A DNA stretch of 64,000 nucleotides from Allobosea sp. CRIB-10. Its GTDB lineage: Bacteria > Pseudomonadota > Alphaproteobacteria > Rhizobiales > Beijerinckiaceae. The translations under genes and the position numbers were made by a program. Positions 3,656 to 57,417 of this stretch are shown in pieces (positions within the stretch are counted from its first letter, which is position 1; each line of letters opens with the position of its first letter). The stretch is from assembly GCF_900112185.1 (NCBI RefSeq), contig NZ_FOKP01000004.1:248001-312000 (forward strand). The letters run 5' to 3'. The notes beneath the pieces are model-generated. The model did not search any database, was not told the origin of the DNA, and saw only the letters and a list, made by a program, of their open reading frames with translations.

Positions 3656-4294
3656 ATGACCGCCATCTCACTCGAGCCGCTCGATCTGGCCGCGCTTCTC
3701 TGCAGCCGCGTCTGCCATGACGTGATCAGCCCGGTCGGCGCCATCGTCAACGCGCTCGAAGTGCTCGAGGAAGACGATCCCTCGATGAAGGACTTCGCGC
3801 TCGACCTGATCAAGAAGAGCGCCCGCAACGCCTCGGCCCGGCTGCAATTCGCGCGGCTCGCCTTCGGCGCGGCCGGTTCGGCCGGCGCGATGATCGATCT
3901 TGGCGACGCCGGCTCCGTCGCCAACGGCTTCCTCAACGACGAGAAGCTCTCGCTCGATTGGGAGGCGCCGCGCGCCCTCCTGCCCAAGAACCAGGTCAAG
4001 CTGGTGCTCAACCTGCTCGTGCTGGCGACGCAGGCGATCCCGCGTGGCGGCAAGATCACCTGCCGCTGCACCGTCACCGGCGAGCAGGGCGGCTTCGCCA
4101 TCACCGCCACCGGCTCGCATGCGCGCATTCCCGCCCATGTCGAGGACCTGATCGCCGGCCGCTCCGAGACCGGCGCCATCGACGCCCATGCGGTCCAGCC
4201 GCTCTATACCGGAATGGTCGCGCGCGCTGCCGGGATGAAGATCGCCTTCGCGATCGAGGGCGACACGGTCAGCATCGGCGCCGAGCCGGCCTGA
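3656..4294 (+). CDS. chpT: Histidine phosphotransferase ChpT
   Basis: The 212-residue protein matches ChpT, the dimeric phosphotransferase that in Caulobacter and relatives passes phosphate from the CckA kinase to CtrA and CpdR. The phospho-accepting His is His21 in the segment SRVCHDVISPVGAI, followed by a helical hairpin and a degenerate ATPase-like C-terminal domain (KNQVKLVLNLLVLATQAIPRGG) without intact nucleotide-binding motifs, as usual for ChpT. The ATG at 3656 directly follows an upstream region of about 270 bases. It stands just ahead of the chemotaxis operon, while its pathway target ctrA lies 6 kb downstream on the other strand. Confidence 0.93.
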   Translation: MTAISLEPLDLAALLCSRVCHDVISPVGAIVNALEVLEEDDPSMKDFALDLIKKSARNASARLQFARLAFGAAGSAGAMIDLGDAGSVANGFLNDEKLSLDWEAPRALLPKNQVKLVLNLLVLATQAIPRGGKITCRCTVTGEQGGFAITATGSHARIPAHVEDLIAGRSETGAIDAHAVQPLYTGMVARAAGMKIAFAIEGDTVSIGAEPA

Positions 4295-4418
4295 GACTTC
4301 GGCGGGCTGTCCGCACGCCTTGTGATTCCTTGCGCTTTCCGCTCCCTCTCAACCGATCATAAACCCTTCCACCGCAATATCCGCAGCAGCATCGGTGGCG
4401 TGAGTGAGCGGTCCTTGC

Positions 4419-7031
4419 ATGGACGAGTTGCTGCAAGAGTTTCTGGGAGAGACCGGCGAGCATCTCGACATGGTCGATCGCGAGCTCGTCCGTTTCGAGC
4501 AGGAGCCGAACAACGGCGACATCCTGCGCAACATCTTCAGGCTCGTCCACACGGTCAAAGGCACCTGCGGCTTCATCGGCCTGCCGCGGCTGGAGGCGCT
4601 GACCCATGCGGCCGAATCCGTCATCGGCCAGTTCCGCGACGGCGCCAGCGTCTCGTCGAGTGCCGTCACGGCGATCCTCGAGACGATTGACCGGATCAAG
4701 GAGATCATGGCCGAGCTCGCCGAGAAGGGGCAGGAGCCGCCGGGTCATGACGGCCAGCTGATCGACGAATTGCGTGGCCTGGCCGAACGGGCGAAGCGGG
4801 AGCTGGCCGTCCGGCAGCCGCAGTCCCTGCTCGATCCGGTCGCCGCCTATCTCGCCCGCTCGGCCGAGAGCCGGTCGGCCGAGGCCGGCGGAGCACCAGG
4901 GACAGGCTCAGTCCCGGACGAGATGGACCTGGTCTTCCGCGCCGCGCCGAGCCCGCTCGACCAGCCCGGCATGGCCCATGGCGAGGCCGGCCGGGATGCG
5001 AAGGCGGCCGGCCCGGCAACCTTGCGGGTCAATGTCGACACGCTCGAGCATCTGATGACCATGGTCTCGGAGCTGGTGCTGACCCGCAACCAGCTGCTGG
5101 AGATCGCGCGCCGGCAGGAAGACGCCGGGCTGAAGGCGCCGCTGCAGCGGCTCTCGCTCATCACCGCCGAGCTGCAGGACGGCGTGATGAAGACGCGCAT
5201 GCAGCCGATCGGCAACGCCTGGTCGAAGCTGCCGCGCATCGTCCGCGACCTCTCCACCGATCTCGGCAAGAAGATCGAGCTTGTGATGGAAGGCGCCGAC
5301 ACAGAGCTCGACCGCCAGCTGCTCGACCTGGTCAAGGACCCGCTCATCCACATGGTGCGCAATTGCGCCGACCATGCCATCGAGGAGCCGCAGGAGCGCG
5401 TCGCGCTCGGCAAGCCGGAAACCGGCACGATCCGCGTCTCGGCCTATCACGAAGGCGGCTCGGTCACGATCGCGATTTCCGATGACGGCCGGGGCATGGA
5501 CGTCGCCCGCATTCGCCGCAAGGCGATCCAGCAGGGATTGGCGACGGAGGCCGAAGCCGACCGGATGAGCGAGACGCAGCTGCTGCGCTTCGTCTTCCAT
5601 CCGGGCTTCTCGACATCCGACACCGTCACCTCGATCTCCGGGCGCGGCGTCGGCATGGATGTGGTCAAGGTCAATGTCGATGCCATCGGCGGCATGATCG
5701 ACATCGCCAGCATCGCCGGCACGGGCACCACGATCACGATCAAGATCCCGCTGACGCTGGCGATCGTCTCCGCCCTGATCGTCGCGACGGACGGCCAGCG
5801 CTTCGCCATTCCGCAGGTGGTCGTGCGTGAGCTCGTGCGCGTCAAGGCCGGCGGCGAACACCGCATCGAGCGGATCAACAACACGCCGGTGCTGCGCCTG
5901 CGCGAGCGGTTGTTGCCGATCATCGCCCTGGCCGGCGTGATCGGCAAGGCGGATGCGGCGATCACCGACGACGGCTTCATCGTAGTGACGCAGGTCGGCG
6001 AGCGCCAGTTCGGCATCCTCGTCGAGGCGGTGTTCCACACCGAGGAGATCGTGGCCAAGCCGATGTCGACGCGGCTGCGCCACATTCCGCTCTTCTCGGG
6101 CAACACCATCCTCGGCGACGGCGCCGTGGTGCTGATCGTCGACCCCAACGGCGTGGCGCGCCTGGTCGGCGTGACGACGCAGGACGACATCGCATCAGAC
6201 GTCTCCGTCGATGCGGCGCTTCCGGCCGAGCGCACCACGATGCTGGTTTTCCGCGCCGGCAAGGACGGAGTGAAAGCGGTCCCCCTCTCTTTGGTCACGC
6301 GGTTGGAGGAGATCGAGGCCGGCCTGTTCGAGAACGGCGGCGGCCGCTCGCTGCTCAACTATCGCGGGCGGTTGATGCCGGTGCTCCCGGTCGAGGGCAC
6401 CCAGCTCCGCCAAGCTGGCCTGCAACCTCTGGTGATCTTCTCGGAAGGCGATTTCAGCATGGCGCTGGCAGTCGACACCATCGTCGACATCGTCGACGAG
6501 GTGCTCGACATCGAGATGCTCGCCATGCCCGAGCAGGGGCTGCTGGGTTCGGCGATCATCCGGGGCCGAGCGACGGAGATTCTCGATCTCGCCTATTATC
6601 TGCCGCGGGCCAATCCGAACTGGCTGCACCTGCGCCACAATGAGAGCGGCGGCCCGCGTGTCCTCTTGGTCGAGCCGTCGGAGTTCCTGCGCGAGATGCT
6701 CGCGCCCGTTCTCAAGGCCGCGGGCTTGCGGGTCACGCATGCAGCAGATCCTGCGATGGCGGCGGGGCTCGCCTCGGGTGATGACCAGCTGAACGCCGTC
6801 GTCGTCGACATCGACCACAATACCGACGCGGCTTTCGCCCTCGCCGCGCGGCTGCGCAGCGAAGACCGCCATGCGGATCTGCGTATCATTGGCCTCGCCA
6901 GCCTGCCGACGCCCGAGCTGCACATCGCCGCGAGCCAGGCGCAGTTCGACGAAGTCGTCGCCAAGTTCGACCGGCGCACCCTGATCGCCGAACTGGCGGA
7001 CACCCGTTCCAGAGTGAGGCGAGCCGCATGA
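4419..7031 (+). CDS. cheA: Hybrid chemotaxis histidine kinase CheA with C-terminal receiver
   Basis: This 870-residue kinase starts with an HPt domain (phospho-His at His44 in RLVHTVKGTCGF), a linker around residues 120-190, a dimerisation helix pair, and an HATPase domain with an HMVRN N-box near 311, SDDGRGMD near 355 and GRGVGMD near 408. After it come two CheW-like domains (about 435-570 and 600-735) and a receiver-like domain from about 747. The receiver keeps the phospho-Asp (about 797, VVVDID) and a C-terminal Lys, but its acidic pocket reads VEPS instead of the usual paired acids. The ATG at 4419 fits other CheA N-termini; a GTG 15 bases earlier is possible. It overlaps cheW by 4 bases. 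Confidence 0.93.
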   Translation: MDELLQEFLGETGEHLDMVDRELVRFEQEPNNGDILRNIFRLVHTVKGTCGFIGLPRLEALTHAAESVIGQFRDGASVSSSAVTAILETIDRIKEIMAELAEKGQEPPGHDGQLIDELRGLAERAKRELAVRQPQSLLDPVAAYLARSAESRSAEAGGAPGTGSVPDEMDLVFRAAPSPLDQPGMAHGEAGRDAKAAGPATLRVNVDTLEHLMTMVSELVLTRNQLLEIARRQEDAGLKAPLQRLSLITAELQDGVMKTRMQPIGNAWSKLPRIVRDLSTDLGKKIELVMEGADTELDRQLLDLVKDPLIHMVRNCADHAIEEPQERVALGKPETGTIRVSAYHEGGSVTIAISDDGRGMDVARIRRKAIQQGLATEAEADRMSETQLLRFVFHPGFSTSDTVTSISGRGVGMDVVKVNVDAIGGMIDIASIAGTGTTITIKIPLTLAIVSALIVATDGQRFAIPQVVVRELVRVKAGGEHRIERINNTPVLRLRERLLPIIALAGVIGKADAAITDDGFIVVTQVGERQFGILVEAVFHTEEIVAKPMSTRLRHIPLFSGNTILGDGAVVLIVDPNGVARLVGVTTQDDIASDVSVDAALPAERTTMLVFRAGKDGVKAVPLSLVTRLEEIEAGLFENGGGRSLLNYRGRLMPVLPVEGTQLRQAGLQPLVIFSEGDFSMALAVDTIVDIVDEVLDIEMLAMPEQGLLGSAIIRGRATEILDLAYYLPRANPNWLHLRHNESGGPRVLLVEPSEFLREMLAPVLKAAGLRVTHAADPAMAAGLASGDDQLNAVVVDIDHNTDAAFALAARLRSEDRHADLRIIGLASLPTPELHIAASQAQFDEVVAKFDRRTLIAELADTRSRVRRAA

Positions 7032-7528
7032 CCGCCCCGAACGATCAGAACGGCGCAGGCCTGACCTTCGAGGACTCGCTCGACTACGTCACCGTCACGG
7101 TCGGCGGGCAATTGCTCGGCCTGCCGATAGCGCGCGTGCAGGACGTCTTCATCGCCACCCGCATCACGCCGGTGCCGCTGGCGCCACGCGAGGTCGTCGG
7201 CCTGATCAATCTGCGCGGCCGCGTGGTCACCGCGATCTGCATGCATCGCCGCATGCACCATGCCGACGCGCCCGCGATACCGCCCGCAGGCGAGGAACGC
7301 GAACTCACCGCGGTCGGGCTGGAGCAGGCCGACGAGGCCTTCGCCCTGATCGTCGACACGGTCGGCGAAGTGATGCGCCTCAGCCGCACGACCTTCGAGC
7401 CGGTGCCGATCCATCTCGATCGCGCCTGGGCTGCCATCGCCAAGGGTGTCCACCGCCTCGACGACCGCCTCCTGGTCGTGATCGACGTCGACGCCGTCCT
7501 CAACATCGAACTGCCGATCGCCGCCTGA
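7028..7528 (+). CDS. cheW: Chemotaxis coupling protein CheW
   Basis: The 166-residue protein has the two-lobed CheW beta fold and couples receptors to CheA. Visible marks are the DYVTVTVGGQLLGLPIARVQ opening, the VVGLINLRGRVVTAI motif (the conserved N-L-R-G segment near residue 66) and the LIVDTVGEVMRL segment. Its start codon lies in the ATGA overlap with cheA, so translation is probably coupled and stoichiometry with the kinase maintained. The next gene, cheY, begins 23 bases after its stop. Confidence 0.93.
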   Translation: MTAPNDQNGAGLTFEDSLDYVTVTVGGQLLGLPIARVQDVFIATRITPVPLAPREVVGLINLRGRVVTAICMHRRMHHADAPAIPPAGEERELTAVGLEQADEAFALIVDTVGEVMRLSRTTFEPVPIHLDRAWAAIAKGVHRLDDRLLVVIDVDAVLNIELPIAA

Positions 7529-7551
7529 CGATCCGCGCCCTGGAGCCTGCC

Positions 7552-7917
7552 ATGAAATACTGCCTCGTCGTCGACGACTCCGCGGTCATCCGAAAGGTCG
7601 CCCGCCGCATCCTGGAAGGGCTGCAATTCCGCATCGCCGAGGCCGAGGACGGCGCACGCGCCATCGACGCCTGCAAGGGCGAGATGCCGGATGCGATCCT
7701 GCTCGACTGGAACATGCCGATCATGGACGGCTACGACTTCCTGCGGAACCTCAGGCAGATGCCGGGCGGCAAGCGCCCCAAGGTGGTGTTCTGCACCACC
7801 GAGAACGACATCGCGCACATCGCCCGCGCCATGCACGCCGGCGCCGACGAGTACATCATGAAGCCGTTCGACAAGGAAATCGTCGCGTCGAAGTTCCACC
7901 AGGTCGGGCTGCTCTGA
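7552..7917 (+). CDS. cheY: Chemotaxis response regulator CheY
   Basis: A single-domain receiver of 121 residues. The acidic pair is Asp8/Asp9, the phospho-acceptor is Asp52 (LLDWNMP), the switch Thr is at 82/83 (FCTTEND) and the conserved Lys is 104 (MKPFD). It lacks an output domain, so it should act on the flagellar switch or as a phosphate sink. A GGAG-like sequence precedes the ATG. It sits between cheW and cheB in the same transcription unit. Confidence 0.93.
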   Translation: MKYCLVVDDSAVIRKVARRILEGLQFRIAEAEDGARAIDACKGEMPDAILLDWNMPIMDGYDFLRNLRQMPGGKRPKVVFCTTENDIAHIARAMHAGADEYIMKPFDKEIVASKFHQVGLL

Positions 7918-7963
7918 AGCAGCCTTGCATGTCGCACCCCCGTCCCCCGACCGCGCAATCGCC

Positions 7964-9082
7964 ATGACCCCCGCGCCGCCCTCCGCAAACCGGCAAGACG
8001 CGCGCCTGAGCACGGTGGTGATCGCCGACGACTCCATGGTGGTGCGCGGATTGTTCGCGCGCTGGCTGGGCGAGAGCGGCCGCTTCCATGTCGTCGGCGT
8101 CGCCGGCGATGGCGAATCCGCGATCGAGCATGCCGGGCGGCATCATCCCGACATCATGGTGCTCGACCTCGACATGCCCATCCTCGACGGCGTCGAGGCG
8201 CTCCCACGGATCATCAAGGAAAGTCCCCGGACAGCCGTGCTGCTCACCACCACGCTGACCGAACGCAACGCCCAGCTGGCTCTGCAATGCATCAGCAAGG
8301 GGGCGGTCGACGTCCTGCCGAAGCCCGACAATCGCAGCGGGCTGACCTTGTCGCTCGACTTCCGCAGCGAACTGCTCGGCAAACTCAGCAGCATTACGCA
8401 ATCCCGTTTCCGCGAGGGTGACCTCGCCGCGGACGGCGCTCAGAGCGCCCCGCTGCCCAGCGGCGTCGCCGACCTGCGGCCGCTGGTCTCCGTGATGCCG
8501 CGCTATCTCGTGATCGGAGCCTCGACCGGCGGTCCGCGCGCCGTCGCCCGCGTCCTCGGCGATCTCGGCGAAGCCCTCGCCAACCTGACCACGCTGATCG
8601 TCCAGCATATGCCGCCGCTGTTCACCGCCTCCTTCGCCGATCAGATCGCAGCCCAGCTCGGCGTGCCGGCACGCGAGCCTCATGACGGGGAGCGGCTCGC
8701 TCGCGGCATGATCTATGTCGCGCCTGGCGGGCGCCATCTCGGCATCGAGCGCAAGCTCGGCCACATCGCGGCCAGCATCAGCGACGAGCCTCCGGTGCAT
8801 TTCTGCCGGCCCGCGGTCGATATCCTCTTCGCGGATGCCGCGCGCCATCTTGGCCCTGCCGCCCTCGGGCTGATCATGACCGGCATGGGTTCCGACGGCA
8901 CCGACGGCGCCACCACGCTGCGTCGCGCAGGCGCCGCGGTCATCGCCCAGGACGAGCAGTCGAGCACGATCTGGGGCATGCCGGGCTCGGTCGTGCGCGC
9001 CGGTCAGGCCAGTGCAGTGCTGCCACTGTCCGGTATCGGCCCGGCCATCCGCACGCTCGTCGGCGGGAGCCGCCCCGCATGA
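7964..9082 (+). CDS. cheB: Chemotaxis protein-glutamate methylesterase CheB
   Basis: An N-terminal receiver (acidic pair near residues 22-23, phospho-Asp68 in VLDLDMP) is joined through a linker to a C-terminal methylesterase domain with the Ser motif GASTGGP, the His motif VQHMPP and the Asp motif GMGSDGTDGA. The enzyme demethylates or deamidates glutamates on chemoreceptors, opposing CheR. The start is uncertain: an in-frame TTG at 7925 would add 13 residues, and neither start has a strong ribosome site. The length from 7964 is 372 residues, normal for the family. It overlaps cheR by 4 bases. Confidence 0.92.
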   Translation: MTPAPPSANRQDARLSTVVIADDSMVVRGLFARWLGESGRFHVVGVAGDGESAIEHAGRHHPDIMVLDLDMPILDGVEALPRIIKESPRTAVLLTTTLTERNAQLALQCISKGAVDVLPKPDNRSGLTLSLDFRSELLGKLSSITQSRFREGDLAADGAQSAPLPSGVADLRPLVSVMPRYLVIGASTGGPRAVARVLGDLGEALANLTTLIVQHMPPLFTASFADQIAAQLGVPAREPHDGERLARGMIYVAPGGRHLGIERKLGHIAASISDEPPVHFCRPAVDILFADAARHLGPAALGLIMTGMGSDGTDGATTLRRAGAAVIAQDEQSSTIWGMPGSVVRAGQASAVLPLSGIGPAIRTLVGGSRPA

Positions 9083-9975
9083 CCGAGCTCGATTTCGATT
9101 TCCTGCGAATCCTTCTGCAGCGGCGCTCGGGTCTCTTCCTCAGCACGGAGAAGCGCTATCTGGTCGAGAGCCGGCTCGGCATGCTCTGCCGTCGCCGCGG
9201 CATCGCGGGGATACCGGCTCTGGTCAGCCAGTTGCGCCTCGGCCCGGCTTCCGAGCTCGAAGCGGCCGTCATCGAGGCGATGACGACCAACGAAACCCTG
9301 TTCTTCCGTGACCGCACGCCGTTCGACCTGTTCCGCGACATCCTCCTGCCCGAGAAGCTCGCAGCCAATGCGCAAAGCCGGACGCTGCGCATCTGGTGCG
9401 CCGCGGTCTCGACCGGCCAGGAAGCCTATTCGATCGCCATGCTCCTCGACGAGGCCGCCGATCGTCTCGCCGGCTGGAACATCGAAATCCTCGGCACCGA
9501 CATCGCGGTCGAGGTCCTCGACCGCGCGCGCCAGGGACTCTACAGCCAGTTCGAAGTGCAGCGTGGCCTGCCGATCCAGCTCCTGCTCAAGCATTTCCGG
9601 CAGGAAGGTGACAAATGGCGCCTCTCCGAGCGCATTCGCGGCATGGTCACGCTCAAGCCGCACAATTTGCTCGAGCCGAGCCAGCAGCTCGGCCAATTCG
9701 ACATCATTTTCTGCCGCAACGTCCTGATCTATTTCGACGTCCCGACCAAGGCACGGGTCATGGCGGCCCTCGCCGAACGGCTCGCGCGGAACGGCGCCTT
9801 CATCCTCGGCGCGGCCGAGACGGTCATCGGCATCACCACGACATTGGTGCCGGATCCGCAGCACCGCGGCATCTATCGCGACGCCTCGTCGAACGCACAG
9901 GCGCGGCGCGCGCCCTTCCCGGCAAGCCCGGAACCCGGCGGCAGCCCCTCCGCCTTCAAGATCGCGCGGACCTGA
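9079..9975 (+). CDS. cheR: Chemotaxis protein methyltransferase CheR
   Basis: The 298-residue enzyme transfers methyl groups from S-adenosylmethionine to receptor glutamates. The N-terminal helical domain is followed by the Rossmann-type methyltransferase domain: the NETLFFRD segment near residue 75, the cofactor loop LRIWCAAVSTGQEAYS near 110, and FDIIFCRNVLIYF near 210. The start codon sits in the ATGA overlap with cheB, so expression is probably coupled. This is the last gene of the che operon; no cheD and no receptor gene follow. The last 30 or so residues are poorly conserved and Ser/Pro-rich. Confidence 0.92.
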   Translation: MTELDFDFLRILLQRRSGLFLSTEKRYLVESRLGMLCRRRGIAGIPALVSQLRLGPASELEAAVIEAMTTNETLFFRDRTPFDLFRDILLPEKLAANAQSRTLRIWCAAVSTGQEAYSIAMLLDEAADRLAGWNIEILGTDIAVEVLDRARQGLYSQFEVQRGLPIQLLLKHFRQEGDKWRLSERIRGMVTLKPHNLLEPSQQLGQFDIIFCRNVLIYFDVPTKARVMAALAERLARNGAFILGAAETVIGITTTLVPDPQHRGIYRDASSNAQARRAPFPASPEPGGSPSAFKIART

Positions 9976-10130: not shown

Positions 10131-10832
10131 TCAAGCCGGAATGCGTTCCTCGGCTTCGCTCGGCTCGCGCAGCACATAGCCGCGGCCCCAGACGGTCTCG
10201 ATGTAGTTCTTGCCGTCGGAAGCGTTGGCGAGCTTCTTGCGCAGCTTGCAGATGAAGACGTCGATGATCTTCAGCTCGGGCTCGTCCATGCCACCATAGA
10301 GGTGGTTCAGGAACATTTCCTTGGTCAGCGTCGTGCCCTTGCGCAGCGAGAGCAGCTCCAGCATCTGATATTCCTTGCCGGTCAAATGCACGCGCTGGGC
10401 ATCGACCTCGACGGTCTTGGTGTCGAGATTGACGACGAGGTCGCCGGTCGTGATCACCGATTGGGCATGGCCCTTCGAGCGGCGCACGATGGCGTGGATG
10501 CGGGCGACGAGCTCGTCCTTGTGGAACGGCTTGGTCAGGTAGTCGTCGGCGCCGAAGCCGAGACCCTTCACCTTGTCCTCGATGCCCGCGAGGCCGGAGA
10601 GGATCAGGATCGGCGTCTTGACCTTGGCGACGCGCAGGGAGCGCAGCACCTCGTAACCCGACATGTCCGGCAGGTTCAGGTCGAGCAGGATGATGTCGTA
10701 GTCGTAGAGCTTGCCGAGATCGACACCCTCTTCGCCCAGATCGGTCGTGTAGACGTTGAAGCTCTCGGACTTCAGCATCAGCTCGATGCTTTGAGCGGTC
10801 GCGCTATCGTCCTCGATCAGCAGAACCCGCAT
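10131..10832 (-). CDS. ctrA: Cell-cycle master response regulator CtrA
   Basis: The 233-residue OmpR-type regulator is the alphaproteobacterial cell-cycle and motility regulator that binds TTAA-N7-TTAA sites. The receiver has acids at residues 7-9, phospho-Asp51 (LLDLNLP) and Lys near 104 (LTKPFH). The winged-helix output domain ends with the [12 protein letters not shown] recognition region and the [10 protein letters not shown] wing. The ATG at 10832 gives the standard CtrA N-terminus; the longer open frame upstream is not coding. The C-terminus ends in Pro-Ala rather than the Ala-Ala used for ClpXP degradation in Caulobacter. It is divergent from fliI across a 343-base region with GANTC methylation sites. 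Confidence 0.96.
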
Positions 10833-11175
10833 GTCACGTCCCCAATTTCGCCCCGAGGCAGCGATCCCGTTCAACCGCCCACAACCCTCGTGGCTGTGGG
10901 GGGACGAACGCTTGCCTGATGAAACGCTACGCGACACGCTACGGGGAAATGGTTAACAAACCCTGATTCCCGCACGCAAGCGCTTCTTGGCAAAAGGTTG
11001 ACGATCCTTGTCGAGGTGAGTCGAATTTGACACGGATCATTCGAGCTTCAGCCGCGAAAGCGCCTTTCGCGGAAGCTCGCATCGACGAAACAGACGAAAA
11101 TCGCCCGGCTCTTCGACGCAGCTTCGAAACGCAGTGTTAATCACTCCGCTTAATGGAAGGTAAACGGCAGGGATC
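10833..11175. promoter_or_regulatory. ctrA/fliI divergent regulatory region
   Basis: This 343-base gene-free stretch holds both promoters. It contains two GANTC sites, the recognition sequence of the cell-cycle methylase CcrM, at 10965-10969 (GATTC) and 11018-11022 (GAGTC). It also has a TTAAC half-site at 10953-10957, adjoining the first GANTC, and two TTAA motifs at 11137-11140 and 11150-11153, just upstream of fliI, with a 9-base rather than the 7-base spacing of a full CtrA box. In Caulobacter the ctrA P1 promoter is likewise controlled by GANTC methylation. Confidence 0.5.
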
Positions 11176-12516
11176 ATGAACGGCGCTTCGCCTGGCCAGG
11201 ACCGGTTATCCACACTCGCGACGATGATCGGCGAGCTCGAGGCGACGTCGGTCTATGGCCGTGTGACCGCCGTGCGCGGCCTGCTCGTCGAGGTCTCAGG
11301 CCCGATCGCGGCGATGAGCCTGGGCGGACGCGTCGGCATCGAGATCGCGCCCGGCGTTCGCGTGCCCTGCGAGGTCATCGGCTTCTCCGGCGAAAAGGCG
11401 CTGGTCATGCCCTATGGCGGCCTCGACGGCGTGCGTCGCGGCTGCCCGGCCTATGTCGACCGCACCGTCGCGGGCTTGCGCCCGACCATGGCCTGGCTCG
11501 GCCGTGTCGTCGACGCGCTCGGGCGCCCGGTCGATGGCGGCCCGCCGCTGCCGCAGGGCGAGCGCACCATCCCCTTCCGCAACGATCCGCCGCCGGCCCA
11601 TGCCCGCAGGCGCGTCGGTCCGCCGCTCGATCTCGGCGTGCGCGCCCTCAACACCTTCCTGACCTGCTGCCTCGGCCAGCGCATGGGCATCTTCGCCGGC
11701 TCCGGCGTCGGCAAGTCGGTCCTGCTTTCGATGCTGGCCCGCTATGCGCGCGCCGACGTCAACATCATCGGCCTGGTCGGCGAGCGCGGCCGCGAGGTCC
11801 AGGAATTCCTGCAGGACGATCTCGGGCCGGACGGCCTTGCCCGCTCGATCGTCGTGGTCGCGACCTCCGACGAGCCGGCGCTGATGCGCAAGCAGGCGGC
11901 GCTGACCACGCTGACCCTCGCCGAATTCTTTCGCGACCAGGGCCTGCAGGTGATGTGCCTGATGGATTCGGTCACCCGCTTCGCCATGGCGATGCGCGAG
12001 ATCGGCCTCGCCGCCGGCGAGCCGCCTACGACCAAAGGATACACCCCCACCGTCTTCGCCGAACTGCCGCGCCTGCTCGAACGCGCCGGCCCCGGCACCG
12101 GCGACGGCGCGATCACCGGGCTCTTCACCGTGCTGGTCGATGGCGGCGACCATGACGAGCCGGTCGCCGATGCGGTGCGCGGCATCCTCGACGGCCATAT
12201 CGTGATGGAGCGCTCCATCGCCGAGCGTGGCCGCTATCCGGCGGTCAACATCCTGAAATCGGTGTCGCGCACCATGCCGCGCTCCTGCGACCCGCTTTAC
12301 TATCCTGTCGTGCAGAAGGCGCGGGCAACGCTCGCGACCTATGCCGACATGGAGGAACTGATTCGCCTCGGCGCCTATCGCCAGGGCGCTTCAGCCGAGG
12401 TCGACGAGGCGATTCGGCTCAACCCCGAGCTCGAAGCCTTCCTGAAGCAGGCCAAGGACGAGGCGACCGCCCTCGGCGACGGTTATGCCCGGCTCGCCCG
12501 CATCATGGGGATGTGA
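11176..12516 (+). CDS. fliI: Flagellum-specific ATP synthase FliI
   Basis: The 446-residue ATPase powers export of flagellar axial proteins. The Walker A loop GSGVGKS is at residues 175-181, the [10 protein letters not shown] motif follows, and the Walker B region is [12 protein letters not shown] near 265. The C-terminal helical part is complete and the length is typical. The ATG at 11176 has an AGGG-like site just upstream. Its usual partner fliJ is 2.2 kb further on, separated by two genes on the other strand. It ends 6 bases before the convergent thioredoxin-like gene. Confidence 0.95.
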
Positions 12517-51267: not shown

Positions 51268-53049
51268 ATGGCGATGAGCACGAGCACCGACACGACCTCG
51301 CAAGCCGGGCAGAGAAACCCGGCGAGCTACACCGCGGTCGTCTATTTCCACGGTATGGGCAGCCAGCGTCGCTACGAGGAAACCAGTCACCTCGTCGACC
51401 AGATCGACCGTCATCTCGGCAACCGGGCACGAGCCGGCGACCAGCAGGGGCAGATCCGCGGCATCAAGGCGCGTATCGAGCCGCTGCACCCGAAGCTCGG
51501 CGAGCCCGGCACCATCAGCTATGTCAAGGCGAGGCTGCTCGACCCTCCGATCGAGCCCGACAATCGCTCGCTCCGCTTCTACGAGGTCTATTGGGCGCCG
51601 ATCATGGCGGAGCAGAAATCGCCCTGGGGCGTGCTGAAATGGATCTTCCGCCAGCCTTTCCGCCCGCTCGACACCTTGAACTCGCCCTGGCGCGAACGTC
51701 AGCGGCTGCGCCGCGCGGTGCTCGCCGCCATGTTCGAAGGGGAGCATGCAACAGCGACACCGGAGCAGAAGCAGGACTATCGCGACCTGCTCGAGCTCTA
51801 TGACGATTTCGACCGCGAGGATCAGAGATTTCCGGCCGGCAGCTTCGACGATTTCCTCGCCTTCGTCCGCGAGCATCCCTCGGTCGCTCCCGATGCCGGC
51901 GTGCGTCTTCAGCTTCTGGCCCGGCGCTGGCAGTCGCAATACCGGCAGGACGAGGTGCGCAATGCCGTCCTGCTCGCGACCATGGCGCTCGCCCTGCTGC
52001 TTCTCGGCGGCGGTGCGTTGCTCGGCATCTTCGTCGCGCTCAAGGCCGTGCTCGGCCTGGAGCTGGTGCCACAATCCGCCCTGCCCTTCGCGGCTGACTG
52101 GAAGAGCGTGCTCGCAGTCGCGGGTTTTCTCGCCGCCGCGCTCGGGCTGACGCGCTTCCTGTCGGATTATATGGGCGACGTTCAGGCCTGGGCGACTTAT
52201 GAGGAAACCGATGCCAAGCACATGGCGCGCAGCAAGGTGCTCGATCGCAGCCTGGAGGTGCTGAGCCATGTCCTACTGGACGATGCCTGCACGCGTGTCG
52301 CGGTCGTCGCGCACAGCCTCGGCACCAGCGTCGCCCATGACGCCCTGCTCGCGCTGAGCCGGCGCAACCGCGCCTACAATCCGGCCGACCCGATGACCGG
52401 CATGGTCGATCTCGGCAAGATCGAGCATTTCGTCACCATGGGCAGCCCGATCGACAAGATCGAGTATTTCTTCGAGAGCTATGTCTCGAACTCGCACCGC
52501 TACAAGCGGGTCGTCGAGGATCTGCGCGGCGACATCGGCACCGAGCCGTTCAAGCACAACACCAAGCCGTTCATCCACTGGATCAACTTCTGGGACGAGG
52601 GCGACCCGATCAGCGGCCCGCTGCATTCGCCGGCCAGCGCGAAGGACTTCGCCCAGCGCGTCGACAACATCCATGTCGCGAGCTACCGCTTCCCGATGCC
52701 GGCGGCCTCGCATGCCGGCTATTTTCATCACCGCACGGTGATCGACTGCCTGTACCGGGTGATCGGCCTGCGCGCGGCCTCGTTCCAGACCCTGACGCTG
52801 CCGGGGCCGAAACAGCAATATCCCTATGAGAGCGTCTATCTGGGTCCGGGCGAGCGGCTGGGCGCCCGCATGCCCTTCATGGTGATGGCGCTCGCCATTC
52901 CCTGGCTCGCGCTTCTCGCCATCGTGCTGGGCCTGCTCGGCGCCGCGCAGCTCGCCTTCGCGGCCGGCGGTCTCGGCGTGACCTTCCTCGTGCTGCTCGC
53001 GATCGGGCTGATCGCCAGCCGCGCCAAGGGCCACCTTATGCCGATATAG
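51268..53049 (+). CDS. Membrane alpha/beta-hydrolase-like protein of unknown function
   Basis: The 593-residue protein shows an N-terminal strand and loop AVVYFHGMGSQ (HGMG, 28-31, like an oxyanion hole) and a nucleophile elbow AHSLG (348-352, Ser350), with candidate Asp (WDEGDP) and His (ASHAGYFHH) triad partners in the later half. Between oxyanion loop and elbow lies an insert of about 300 residues with two membrane helices (about 232-256 and 280-297); two more follow near the C-terminus. The elbow lacks the first Gly, as in Bacillus LipA. The start ATG has GAGCGGA just upstream. Substrate and role are unknown. Confidence 0.75.
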   Translation: MAMSTSTDTTSQAGQRNPASYTAVVYFHGMGSQRRYEETSHLVDQIDRHLGNRARAGDQQGQIRGIKARIEPLHPKLGEPGTISYVKARLLDPPIEPDNRSLRFYEVYWAPIMAEQKSPWGVLKWIFRQPFRPLDTLNSPWRERQRLRRAVLAAMFEGEHATATPEQKQDYRDLLELYDDFDREDQRFPAGSFDDFLAFVREHPSVAPDAGVRLQLLARRWQSQYRQDEVRNAVLLATMALALLLLGGGALLGIFVALKAVLGLELVPQSALPFAADWKSVLAVAGFLAAALGLTRFLSDYMGDVQAWATYEETDAKHMARSKVLDRSLEVLSHVLLDDACTRVAVVAHSLGTSVAHDALLALSRRNRAYNPADPMTGMVDLGKIEHFVTMGSPIDKIEYFFESYVSNSHRYKRVVEDLRGDIGTEPFKHNTKPFIHWINFWDEGDPISGPLHSPASAKDFAQRVDNIHVASYRFPMPAASHAGYFHHRTVIDCLYRVIGLRAASFQTLTLPGPKQQYPYESVYLGPGERLGARMPFMVMALAIPWLALLAIVLGLLGAAQLAFAAGGLGVTFLVLLAIGLIASRAKGHLMPI

Positions 53050-53981: not shown

Positions 53982-55334
53982 ATGAACAATGCCATCGTCG
54001 AGCATACAGCGCGCCTGCGGACCTTCCGGATCGACGCTACCGACATCCGCCTGCTGCGGCAGCAGGCGGAGTTCGGGCGCCGGCGCCTGCCGACCCTGCT
54101 GCCGGAATTGCATGAGCAGTTCGAGGCCTGGCCTGAGATCCTGCGGGCGATGCAGCGGCCGGACGTGCATGAACTCCGGCTCGCGCACTGGATCAGGCTG
54201 GTCTCGGGCGAATTCGAGGACGGCTTTCTGGAGTCGGCACATGCCCTCGCCAGTGCCTTCAACGACAATGGCGTTCCAGCCCATGCCGTCGCGATCTGCC
54301 ACGCCATCGTCAGTAATGCGATCGGCGCCGAGCTCGGCCTGCTGCGCGACGGCCTCGCCAGGCTCAGCCACATCTGGCAGGCCAAGGAATACAATCGGCG
54401 TATCGCGCTGCGCGCCGCCTTGCAGAAGGCGGTGCAGCTCGATCTCGAACTGCTGCTCGAGACCTATGCCCACGTCCAGCGCCAGAGCCGCGAGCGCATC
54501 CAGCACGAAATCTCGGCCTTCCAGGTCACGGTCCGCGACGTGGTCGGTGCCGTCACCGGCAGCGCCCGCGTCGTCGAGGAGATGGCGCACACGATGAATG
54601 GTGTCGTGAAGGAAACCGGCCTGCAGGCTGTCGCCGCCGCGCGAGCCTCGGACGAGGCTTCCGACAATGTCGCCAGCGTCGCCAGCGCTACCGAGGAGCT
54701 TTCCGCCTCGCTTAGCGAGATCTCCGGCGAGGTCGCCCGCGCCACGACCAAGGCTCACGATGCCAGCAATGCGGCACTCCGGACCGAGGCGATCGTCAAG
54801 GGCCTGGCGCAGTCGGCGCAGACGATCGGCTCGATCGTTGACCTGATCCGCGACATTGCCGCGCAGACCAATCTGCTGGCGCTCAACGCGACCATCGAAG
54901 CGGCCCGGGCCGGCGAAGCCGGGCGGGGCTTCGCGGTGGTCGCGCAGGAGGTGAAGCAGCTTTCAGCGCGCACCGCCAGGGCCACCGACGAGATCGCGGC
55001 CCAGGTTCCGGCCATGCAGGCGGCGACGCAGGAGGCCGTCGAGGCGATCGAGAGCATCGTCGGCTTCGTCGGCGACATGGACCAGACGACGCTGACGATC
55101 GCGAGCTCCGTCGACGAGCAGCGGGCAGCCACCCAGGAGATCGCCCGCAGCATCAGCTTCGCCTCGCAAGGCACGCAGGAAGTCGCGCAGGCCATCGCCA
55201 GCGTCAACGACTCCGCCCAGGCCGCTGGCATGGGCGTCGACGAGATGCTCGGCCTCGCCCAGGCCTTGACGCGCCAGGCCGAGACCCTGACCGAAGCCTT
55301 CGAGAACCTGACGAAACAGAACCGCGCCGCCTGA
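53982..55334 (+). CDS. Soluble globin-fold chemoreceptor lacking the usual heme-binding His
   Basis: The 450-residue protein has no membrane segments. Its first 170 residues look like a protoglobin domain ([31 protein letters not shown]), followed by a helical linker and a methyl-accepting signalling domain with the hairpin [46 protein letters not shown]. In aligned globin-coupled sensors the proximal His would fall near residue 93, where this protein has Phe. It should signal to CheA through CheW but may not bind heme. It is far from the che operon and precedes phoX. Confidence 0.85.
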
Positions 55335-55359: not shown

Positions 55360-55413
55360 GCACGGCTCTTAATTTTGAGTCATTCTAACTTTGACGACAG
55401 GACGGGGCCGGCC

Positions 55414-57417
55414 ATGACCAACGAGACGCAATACGAATCCACCTTCGGTGCCAGCATGCTCGAGCATGACGATGCGCCGCCGCAGAACCACTCCGCCAAC
55501 CCGACCATGGGCGAACTGATCGGTCAGCGCTTCTCGCGCCGTGGCCTGCTCAAGGGCGCCCTCGCCGTCTCCGCCATCTCCGCAACGGTCGGCGCGGCCG
55601 CGCTGGCTACTGCCGAGGAGGCCAAGGCCCAGGCGAAGGGCTCCGCTTTCAGCTTCAAGGAAGTCGAGGCCGGGGTCGACGCCGACCACCATGTCGCGGA
55701 GGGCTATCAGGCCGACGTGTTGCTGCGCTGGGGCGACCCGCTCTTCCCCGACGCGCCGGCCTTTGACCCGACGAAGCAGACGGCCGAGTCCCAGGCCAAG
55801 CAGTTCGGCTACAACAACGACTTCGTCGGCTACCTGCCGGTGCCGGGAGCGGCCGACCCGTCGGCCCATGGCGTGCTCTTCGTCAATCACGAATACACCA
55901 ACCCGCATCTGATGTTCCCGGGCGTCGTTGAGATCAAGGACGGCAAGCCGGTGATGAAGAACGCGACCCCGGAGCGTTTTGCGATCGAGGCGATGGCGCA
56001 TGGCGCGACCGTCGCCGAAATCCGCAAGACCGACGGCAAATGGGCGCTGGTGAAGAATTCCAAGTATAATCGCCGCATCACGGTCGCCACCGAGATGCAG
56101 CTCTCCGGCCCTGTCGCCGGTTCCGATCGCGTCAAGACCAATGCCGATGCCAGCGGCCGCAAGGTCTTCGGCACGCTGAACAACTGCTCGGGCGCGATGA
56201 CGCCCTGGGGCACTTTCGTCTCCGGCGAGGAGAACTTCCACGGCTACTTCTCCGGCAAGCTGCCGGACGGCCACCGCGAGGAGGCCAATTACAAGCGCCT
56301 CGCCATTCCCTCGGCGCCCTATGCCTGGGGCCGCTTCGAGGAGCGCTTCGACCTCGCCAAGGAGCCGAACGAGGCCAACCGCTTCGGCTGGGTGATCGAG
56401 GTCGATCCGTTCGATCCGAACTCGGTGCCGAAGAAGCGCACCGCGCTCGGCCGCTTCAAGCATGAAGGCGCCGACAGCATCGTCGCCAAGGATGGCCGCG
56501 TCGTCGTCTATCTCGGCGACGACGAGCGCTTCGACTATGTCTACAAATTCGTCACCGCCGGCCGCTTCGATCCGAACAACCGGGCCGCCAATATGGACCT
56601 GCTCGATGCGGGCACGCTCCATGTCGCCAAGTTCGCCGCCGACGGCACGGTCGAGTGGCTGCCGCTGGTCTTCGGCCAGGGTCCGCTCACGGCCGCCAAC
56701 GGCTTCGTAAGCCAGGCCGACGTGCTGATCGAGAGCCGCCGCGCCGGCGACCTGCTCGGCGCCACCAAGATGGACCGGCCGGAGGACATCACCCCGAACG
56801 GCGTCAACGGCCGCGTCTATGTGATGCTGACCAACAACACCAACCGCAAGGAAGACCAGGTCGACGCCGCCAATCCGCGCGCCAAGAACGCCTTCGGCCA
56901 CATCATCGAGATCATCGAGGATGGCGGCGACTTCACCGCGACCAAGGGCAAGTGGGAAGTGCTGCTGAAATGCGGTGATCCTTCCGTCGCCGCCGTCGGC
57001 GCCAGCTTCTCGACCGAGACCAGCAAGGATGGCTGGTTCGGCATGCCGGACAATGCGGTGGTCGATTCCGCCGGCCGGCTCTGGGTTTCGACCGACGGCA
57101 ACGGCCCGCAGGAGACCGGCCGCACCGACGGCCTCTGGGCGGTCGACACCGAAGGCGAGGCGCGCCGCACCTCGAAGCTGTTCTACCGCGTGCCGCATGG
57201 CGCCGAGCTCTGCGGACCCTGCTTCACACCGGACGACACCACCGCCTTCGTCGCCGTCCAGCATCCGGGCGACGACGGTCCGGACTGGCCGGCCTTCGGC
57301 CGTCGTTCCTATTACGAGGATCTCTCGACCCGCTGGCCCGACTTCAAGCCGGACATGCCGACGCGTCCCTCGGTGGTGGCGATCACCAAGCGCGGCGGAG
57401 GCAAGATCGGCGTGTGA
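55414..57417 (+). CDS. phoX: Tat-exported PhoX-type alkaline phosphatase (DUF839)
   Basis: The 667-residue protein has a twin-Arg leader (FSRRGLLKGALAVSAISATVG, Arg pair near residues 41-42) and a DUF839/PhoX beta-propeller with repeated GRVVVYLGDDERFDYVYKFV-type strands. PhoX is a monomeric calcium/iron phosphatase that releases phosphate from diverse phosphoesters in the periplasm when phosphate is short. The ATG at 55414 is chosen; a TTG 39 bases upstream is open but weak. A Pho-box-like repeat and a downstream terminator frame it as a single-gene unit. Confidence 0.88.
   Translation: MTNETQYESTFGASMLEHDDAPPQNHSANPTMGELIGQRFSRRGLLKGALAVSAISATVGAAALATAEEAKAQAKGSAFSFKEVEAGVDADHHVAEGYQADVLLRWGDPLFPDAPAFDPTKQTAESQAKQFGYNNDFVGYLPVPGAADPSAHGVLFVNHEYTNPHLMFPGVVEIKDGKPVMKNATPERFAIEAMAHGATVAEIRKTDGKWALVKNSKYNRRITVATEMQLSGPVAGSDRVKTNADASGRKVFGTLNNCSGAMTPWGTFVSGEENFHGYFSGKLPDGHREEANYKRLAIPSAPYAWGRFEERFDLAKEPNEANRFGWVIEVDPFDPNSVPKKRTALGRFKHEGADSIVAKDGRVVVYLGDDERFDYVYKFVTAGRFDPNNRAANMDLLDAGTLHVAKFAADGTVEWLPLVFGQGPLTAANGFVSQADVLIESRRAGDLLGATKMDRPEDITPNGVNGRVYVMLTNNTNRKEDQVDAANPRAKNAFGHIIEIIEDGGDFTATKGKWEVLLKCGDPSVAAVGASFSTETSKDGWFGMPDNAVVDSAGRLWVSTDGNGPQETGRTDGLWAVDTEGEARRTSKLFYRVPHGAELCGPCFTPDDTTAFVAVQHPGDDGPDWPAFGRRSYYEDLSTRWPDFKPDMPTRPSVVAITKRGGGKIGV

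Follow-up and report, generated by a model that had tools for sequence, protein, structure and literature searches.

Globin-coupled methyl-accepting chemotaxis proteins (MCPs) are usually read as oxygen receptors. HemAT-type sensors, such as HemAT-Bs and Agrobacterium Atu1027, carry a Protoglobin domain ahead of a soluble MCP signalling domain. In HemAT, Tyr70 and His123 are described as heme-facing residues (PMC13401364). Changing His123 is reported to abolish HemAT function, and the H100A variant of Atu1027, altered at the equivalent His, gives no aerotaxis in Agrobacterium (PMC10851874). In the sensor GsGCS, His66 at position E11 is given as the hexacoordination residue (PMC4476040).

A globin sensor fold without heme-binding residues is found in RsbR of Bacillus, in pXO1-118 and pXO2-61 and in the N-domain of MabR; Photoglobin is a further non-heme globin family. 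The pXO proteins bind fatty acid. The outputs of RsbR, the pXO proteins and MabR are of the stressosome, sporulation or DNA-binding kind. Proximal His and distal Tyr are both described as absent from RsbR of the Bacillus clade, which is regarded as a non-haem globin, and as present in the Vibrio clade (PMC4976288); the MabR N-domain is described as a non-heme globin without His residues for iron (PMC11617747). Agrobacterium MCP514 (Atu0514, che operon) is a soluble protoglobin chemoreceptor, in whose paper the word "heme" is absent from the main text. By its authors' account it has a HAMP domain; we compare it by its published description.

The window analyzed here, a stretch of 64,000 nucleotides from Allobosea sp. 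CRIB-10 (contig NZ_FOKP01000004.1, positions 248,001 to 312,000), encodes a soluble globin-domain chemoreceptor at 53982-55334 on the + strand, recognized from its open reading frame and its Pfam Protoglobin and MCPsignal matches. Like HemAT-type sensors and MCP514, it places a soluble receptor output behind a domain of the Protoglobin family, predicted to fold as a globin. Unlike HemAT-type sensors, it has both the proximal His and the distal Tyr replaced, with Arg at E11 and His on helix G, and unlike the non-heme globin sensors it ends in an MCP domain. With moderate confidence, we read the protein as a cytoplasmic chemoreceptor whose heme-free globin-fold sensor holds another small ligand in a former heme pocket that has become polar. 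Heme-free globin sensors as such are already known; a clade of heme-free globin chemoreceptors is, as far as the literature searched goes, an undescribed variant. No paper on heme-free protoglobin chemoreceptors, Bosea included, stood out in our search of the open-licence literature, which is a weak negative.

Domain architecture and predicted fold

According to the list of open reading frames and its translation, the gene encodes 450 amino acids plus a stop codon. The Protoglobin-fold sensor domain, assigned by Pfam, AlphaFold2 and VIA-align, spans residues 9-165 (54006-54476, + strand; PF11563, 42.7 bits against a cut-off of 25). The best stretch of the MCP signalling domain spans residues 253-410 (54738-55211, + strand; PF00015, 111.6 bits). 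Its hairpin tip is intact, beginning at residue 297, and methylation-type motifs lie on either side of it at residues 234 and 375. No clear transmembrane stretch was found in the 450 residues, the top 19-residue Kyte-Doolittle window reaching 1.64, and the MCPsignal domain, intact tip and methylation-type motifs are those of a cytoplasmic MCP. A sequence-only reading of this DNA had noted a globin-coupled sensor pattern (HW...SG.F) and an intact signalling hairpin; both features were recovered, the pattern at residues 69-70 and 75-78 within the Pfam Protoglobin match and the tip within the MCPsignal match.

That reading had also proposed a structure prediction. An AlphaFold2 model built on an 82-row alignment has a globin fold, with a mean pLDDT of 92.1 and a pTM of 0.88. 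The best VIA-align matches to this model were GsGCS 2w31 (Z 15.8, rmsd 2.7, 147 aligned residues) and HemAT 1or6_B (Z 15.7, rmsd 2.6, 148 aligned residues), and HemAT 1or4_B gave Z 15.6 and rmsd 2.6. As a control we modelled L065, a His-bearing paralog from the same genome, which reached a pLDDT of 93.7, Z 20.1 to 8h17, and Z 19.4 with rmsd 2.0 to HemAT 1or4_B. The models thus place the window domain among the globins, further from the solved heme sensors than L065, although the gap in Z is only suggestive because the control model used a different alignment of 30 rows. The 82 rows included 44 from outside the clade defined below, 41 of them with His at F8, and these His-bearing rows may pull the window model toward the heme fold.

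The non-heme proteins pXO2-61 (3pmc, Z 11.4) and pXO1-118 (3pmd, Z 11.2) matched the model less well than the heme sensors did, so the fold comparison does not group the window domain with them; its lineage groups with the Protoglobin MCPs of Pfam. RsbR 2bnl is absent from the 50 VIA-align rows shown, an absence that carries no information. On predicted fold and alignment, the domain is a globin fold without heme ligands, as are RsbR and pXO1-118. In sequence searches of the PDB, the single domain matched nothing at E 10, and the profile of its orthologs (A3) alone gave weak matches, GsGCS 2w31 at E 0.02 followed by unrelated chains from E 0.06.

The proximal position and the rebuilt pocket

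The sequence-only reading had placed Phe93 (54258-54260, + strand) at the position of the proximal His (F8). MAFFT alignment with canonical sensors put the same residue in the F8 column. hhalign of ortholog profile A3 against canonical profile A2 returned the same register (probability 99.1, E 1.7e-18), and on HemAT chain 1or4 the invariant His and Tyr of A2 fall on His123 and Tyr70, respectively. Phe93 therefore stands opposite HemAT His123, and the first assignment holds. Among 38 distinct ortholog sequences, our own included, F8 is Phe in 37 and Leu in one. Of the features of a HemAT-type heme sensor, the domain has the family membership (PF11563, the hhalign match and the Z score to 1or6_B) and lacks both the proximal His at F8 and the distal Tyr at B10.

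One could argue that this is an ordinary heme-based oxygen sensor that has been misaligned, or else a decaying gene. Identity to the His-bearing domains is just 14-23%, and the first alignment was made from the sequence alone; against this, two programs agree on F8 and no His lies within five residues of Phe93. Together with the constraint on the gene described below, these observations make such an explanation very improbable. Candidates for a substitute proximal ligand, two of which the sequence-only reading had named as residues that would overturn it, were examined in turn. His69 (54186-54188, + strand) corresponds to HemAT His99 on helix E, not to the proximal ligand, and is kept in His93 and Phe93 members alike (97 of 98 His93 rows). 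Of 37 orthologs, 11 have Arg and one has Asp in place of His87, and 24 have Tyr in place of His101.

For the pocket as a whole we compared 146 domains, left from 152 aligned ones after six long-branch loci were excluded before the final tree. Picking rows with both Arg66 and His107 gave a clade of 49, the window protein included, from seven family codes of the class. F8 is Phe in 47 of these and Leu in two, and residue 69 is His in all 49; in the other 97 rows F8 is His in 94 and Tyr in three, never Phe or Leu. The loss of the F8 His that had suggested a globin sensor without its heme ligand is thus conserved throughout the clade.

Three further positions have changed. His44 (54111-54113, + strand) aligns with the distal Tyr at B10 (HemAT Tyr70); across the clade this position holds His (38), Gln (5), Arg (4) or Asp (2), and never Tyr, compared with Tyr in 94 and Val in three of the other rows. 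Arg66 (54177-54179, + strand) aligns with E11, which is His66 in GsGCS and Leu96 in HemAT; GsGCS His66 falls on the canonical Gln that is Arg66 in the window protein. E11 is Gln in 93 of the 97 other rows. Arg66 occurs in all 49 clade rows, but Arg66 and His107 were the selection criterion; before the clade was picked, the ortholog alignment already had Arg66 in 37 of 37 Phe93 rows, and likewise His107 in 37 of 37. On helix G, Cys106-His107 (54297-54302, + strand) occupies the place of Gly-Tyr in the canonical GGY motif, in a register that may be off by one. Residue 106 is Cys in 40 clade members, Asp in six and Gly in three, and position 107 is Tyr in 96 of the 97 other rows.

The doubt about register stems from one small alignment of 23 rows, in which Cys106, not His107, stands opposite the canonical helix-G Tyr. 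The one-residue gap responsible suggested a shorter FG turn that would shift Cys106-His107 by one. We do not claim such a turn: the larger alignments are gap-free there, compensating gaps in hhalign keep His107 opposite Tyr, and helix G begins seven residues past F8 in both models (93 to 100 and 98 to 105).

B10, E11 and F8 are taken to face the heme because they align with HemAT Tyr70, GsGCS His66 (E11) and HemAT His123, so that, among the pocket residues, the direction of the side chains is known only by analogy and for these three positions alone. Fourteen columns were at least 95% conserved in the His93 rows. Four of them (His69, Trp70, Asp154 and Tyr162) are retained in 47-49 of the 49 clade members, and all 49 have another residue at seven (Phe43, Tyr44, Gln66, Gly90, His93, Tyr103 and Tyr107). 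Tyr82 is retained in 17 and Gly97 in 36; for Pro100, the alignment used decides between a replacement and a shift by one. Judged from the aligned residues, the signature is therefore wider and more specific than the F8 change first noted, as the B10 Tyr, E11 Gln and helix-G Tyr are replaced clade-wide too.

These residues also bear on whether heme might still be bound, through His107 or Cys106 on helix G, or through His69 or His44, which would make the protein an unusually ligated sensor of oxygen, NO or redox. All 49 members have His69 and His107 (the latter partly through the choice of rows) and 40 have Cys106, and a second ligand from E10 or E11 is described as possible in bacterial globins (PMC4476040). 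His69, however, is equally conserved in the His93 members without serving as their proximal ligand, and HGbRL, an unusually ligated globin, is reported to keep its proximal His (PMC4476040). Moreover, Tyr B10, Gln E11 and His F8 have been lost together, and the stretch from B10 to helix E is shortened relative to the canonical rows compared, by four residues against L065, L066, L031 and L015 and by two against L030, L050, L053 and L137. We consider it distinctly unlikely that another residue of the window protein holds heme.

Distribution of the clade and constraint on the gene

In a tree built without columns 44, 66, 93, 106 and 107, the 49 members form one side of a branch with an SH-aLRT support of 100. 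This final tree came from a quick search with no bootstrap, its stem is 2.16 long and it is unrooted; the sister group of the clade is unsure, given the program's warning about long branches that join at the stem. The grouping also appeared in an earlier tree of 131 rows, as 42 rows with a support of 99. Since the rows outside the clade almost all carry His, the simplest reading of the alignment is that the ligand was lost a single time, at the clade's base.

At the genus level, 42 of 67 genomes had a match, which was strong (E 5.4e-46 or better) in 38. Seven loci at 75-90% identity belong to close relatives, by their record titles four Bosea, one Boseaceae, one Rhizobiales bacterium and one Methylobacterium MAG. 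At the order level, profile A3 matched in 46 of 397 genomes; two genomes of family code f11 carry two clade members each, and the other aligned matches bear His. At the class level, 29 of 385 genomes had a match, and seven beyond our own were strong (158-188 bits); all seven have the signature (F8 Phe in six, Leu in one), and F8 is His in all 14 other domains aligned from that search.

Seven matches were also found among 72,556 plasmid records, again with the signature in all seven and with Phe in six and Leu in one at F8. They come from four Azospirillum, Pseudoroseomonas cervicalis, Roseomonas haemaphysalidis and Methylobacterium radiotolerans. Five of these seven relatives are annotated as "globin-coupled sensor protein" and one as an MCP, and one record is unannotated. 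Reading the Azospirillum, Bosea, Roseomonas and Methylobacterium genes as aerotaxis receptors would be wrong if the clade is heme-free.

Other globin MCPs also have no His at F8 (L017, L018, L019 and L028): the residue is Tyr in three genomes of one genus code and Arg in one. Since these carry Tyr or Arg at F8, the ligand seems to have been lost several times among globin MCPs.

The window gene is under purifying selection. Nei-Gojobori comparisons with 11 orthologs gave dN/dS values of 0.10-0.25 for residues 5-165 and 0.07-0.30 for residues 166-450. None of the 38 strong genus matches has an internal stop; the single stop-bearing row is a weak match at 21% identity. In 21 of 21 Bosea-type loci checked, yebC adjoins the gene. 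A decaying sensor is unlikely, given the low dN/dS and the constant yebC neighbor.

We also considered how the lineage acquired the gene. There is no sign of recent horizontal import in Bosea, as yebC adjoins the gene at all 21 loci and the gene has a GC content of 0.678 compared with 0.669 for the window. In family f11, ruvA, ruvC, TauE and a YebC lie near the gene at one of four loci. Transfer deeper in the clade is possible, given the relatives on plasmids. Nor did the gene arise by recent duplication of the His-bearing sensors in its genome, since L065 and L066 lie elsewhere in the tree and have another class of hairpin tip. In the window, a 593-residue open reading frame at 51268-53049 (+ strand) carries a VAHSLG stretch resembling that of lipases and matches no Pfam family at 0.001, and a similar gene occurs at one of 25 related loci (L007). 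Directly downstream of the receptor, 55375-57417 (+ strand) encodes a PhoX-type alkaline phosphatase (568 bits), found at five of 25 related loci.

Proposed input and chemotaxis context

With the proximal His and distal Tyr gone, Gln at E11 changed to Arg, the helix-G Tyr changed to His and the MCP output kept, the receptor probably senses something other than oxygen, and a new input is the best reading of these replacements. We infer both the absence of heme and the presence of another ligand. The former heme pocket would be partly filled by Phe93 and would now be polar, lined by Arg66, His107 and usually His44 and Cys106. It could hold another small ligand: Arg and His suggest an anion or carboxylate, and the Cys-His pair could suit a metal ion; that the ligand is polar is a guess from residue types. 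Ligand binding would shift the globin dimer, and the shift would pass along the long last globin helix running into the MCP coiled coil to alter CheA activity. The signal would thus travel mechanically as in HemAT, from a different input, with CheA as the presumed output partner.

The domain might instead be a globin free of both heme and ligand, a structural or integrating module that tunes a mixed receptor array or whose input is pH, redox or another protein, not something bound in the pocket. Phe93 could merely fill space, and Agrobacterium MCP514 speaks for this reading: this protoglobin MCP is reported to affect chemotaxis to four chemical types that, its authors say, the predicted protoglobin cannot bind, and it is discussed there as an array member. 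Yet Arg and His have been retained at once-conserved positions over seven family codes, which is more than packing needs, and we regard a ligand-free module as rather unlikely.

Returning to a ligand-binding, heme-free sensor, we give about an even chance to its wider form, in which an alphaproteobacterial family found across the class turned the heme pocket once into a site for another chemical, with Arg at E11, His on helix G and mostly His at B10, as a cytoplasmic taxis input that current annotation lists with globin-coupled sensing. Such a clade would, if true, offer a clear-cut example from nature of a globin that once sensed gas and now takes another input, with few positions to mutate.

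The genome itself (6.33 Mb, 72 contigs) contains another globin MCP family that lacks His at F8, at G000:C53:86951-87508 (L068, L165) and G000:C53:67701-68159 (L196, L208). Among 30 distinct N-domains aligned from this family, F8 is Glu in 26, Leu in two and Ala in two. The family matches the His-bearing sensors at an hhalign E of 5.9e-18, and a PF11563 match at E 0.01 or better was obtained for 15 of 19 members. The L068 domain has matches, weak ones included, in 57 of 67 genus genomes. Glu at F8 also occurs in L211, L212 and, in a less sure alignment, L224, which belong to other families. That the genus has at least one further candidate family of heme-less globin chemoreceptors, mostly with Glu at F8, stands or falls, for us, in one balanced judgment with the class-wide conversion of the pocket.

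By eye, the MCPs of the genome (L195-L207, L065, L066 and L068) fall into two hairpin-tip classes, one of the NAAVEAARAG type. The comparison covered 14 MCP frames, and the genome has 30 MCPsignal matches. The window receptor shares its tip class with the Glu-type L068 and L196, unlike L065 and L066, and two score groups in the MCPsignal search match the two tip classes. The two tip classes and two score groups suggest two receptor arrays in this genome.

Partners for such receptors are encoded in the genome. It has five CheW-domain matches, two of them in open frames of 816 and 875 amino acids, and the 875-residue frame combines Hpt, H-kinase_dim, HATPase and CheW domains. Within the window, a chpT-cheA-cheW-cheY-cheB-cheR cluster lies 44 kb upstream of the receptor (3656-9975), and beside it are ctrA (10131-10937, - strand) and fliI (11176-12516).
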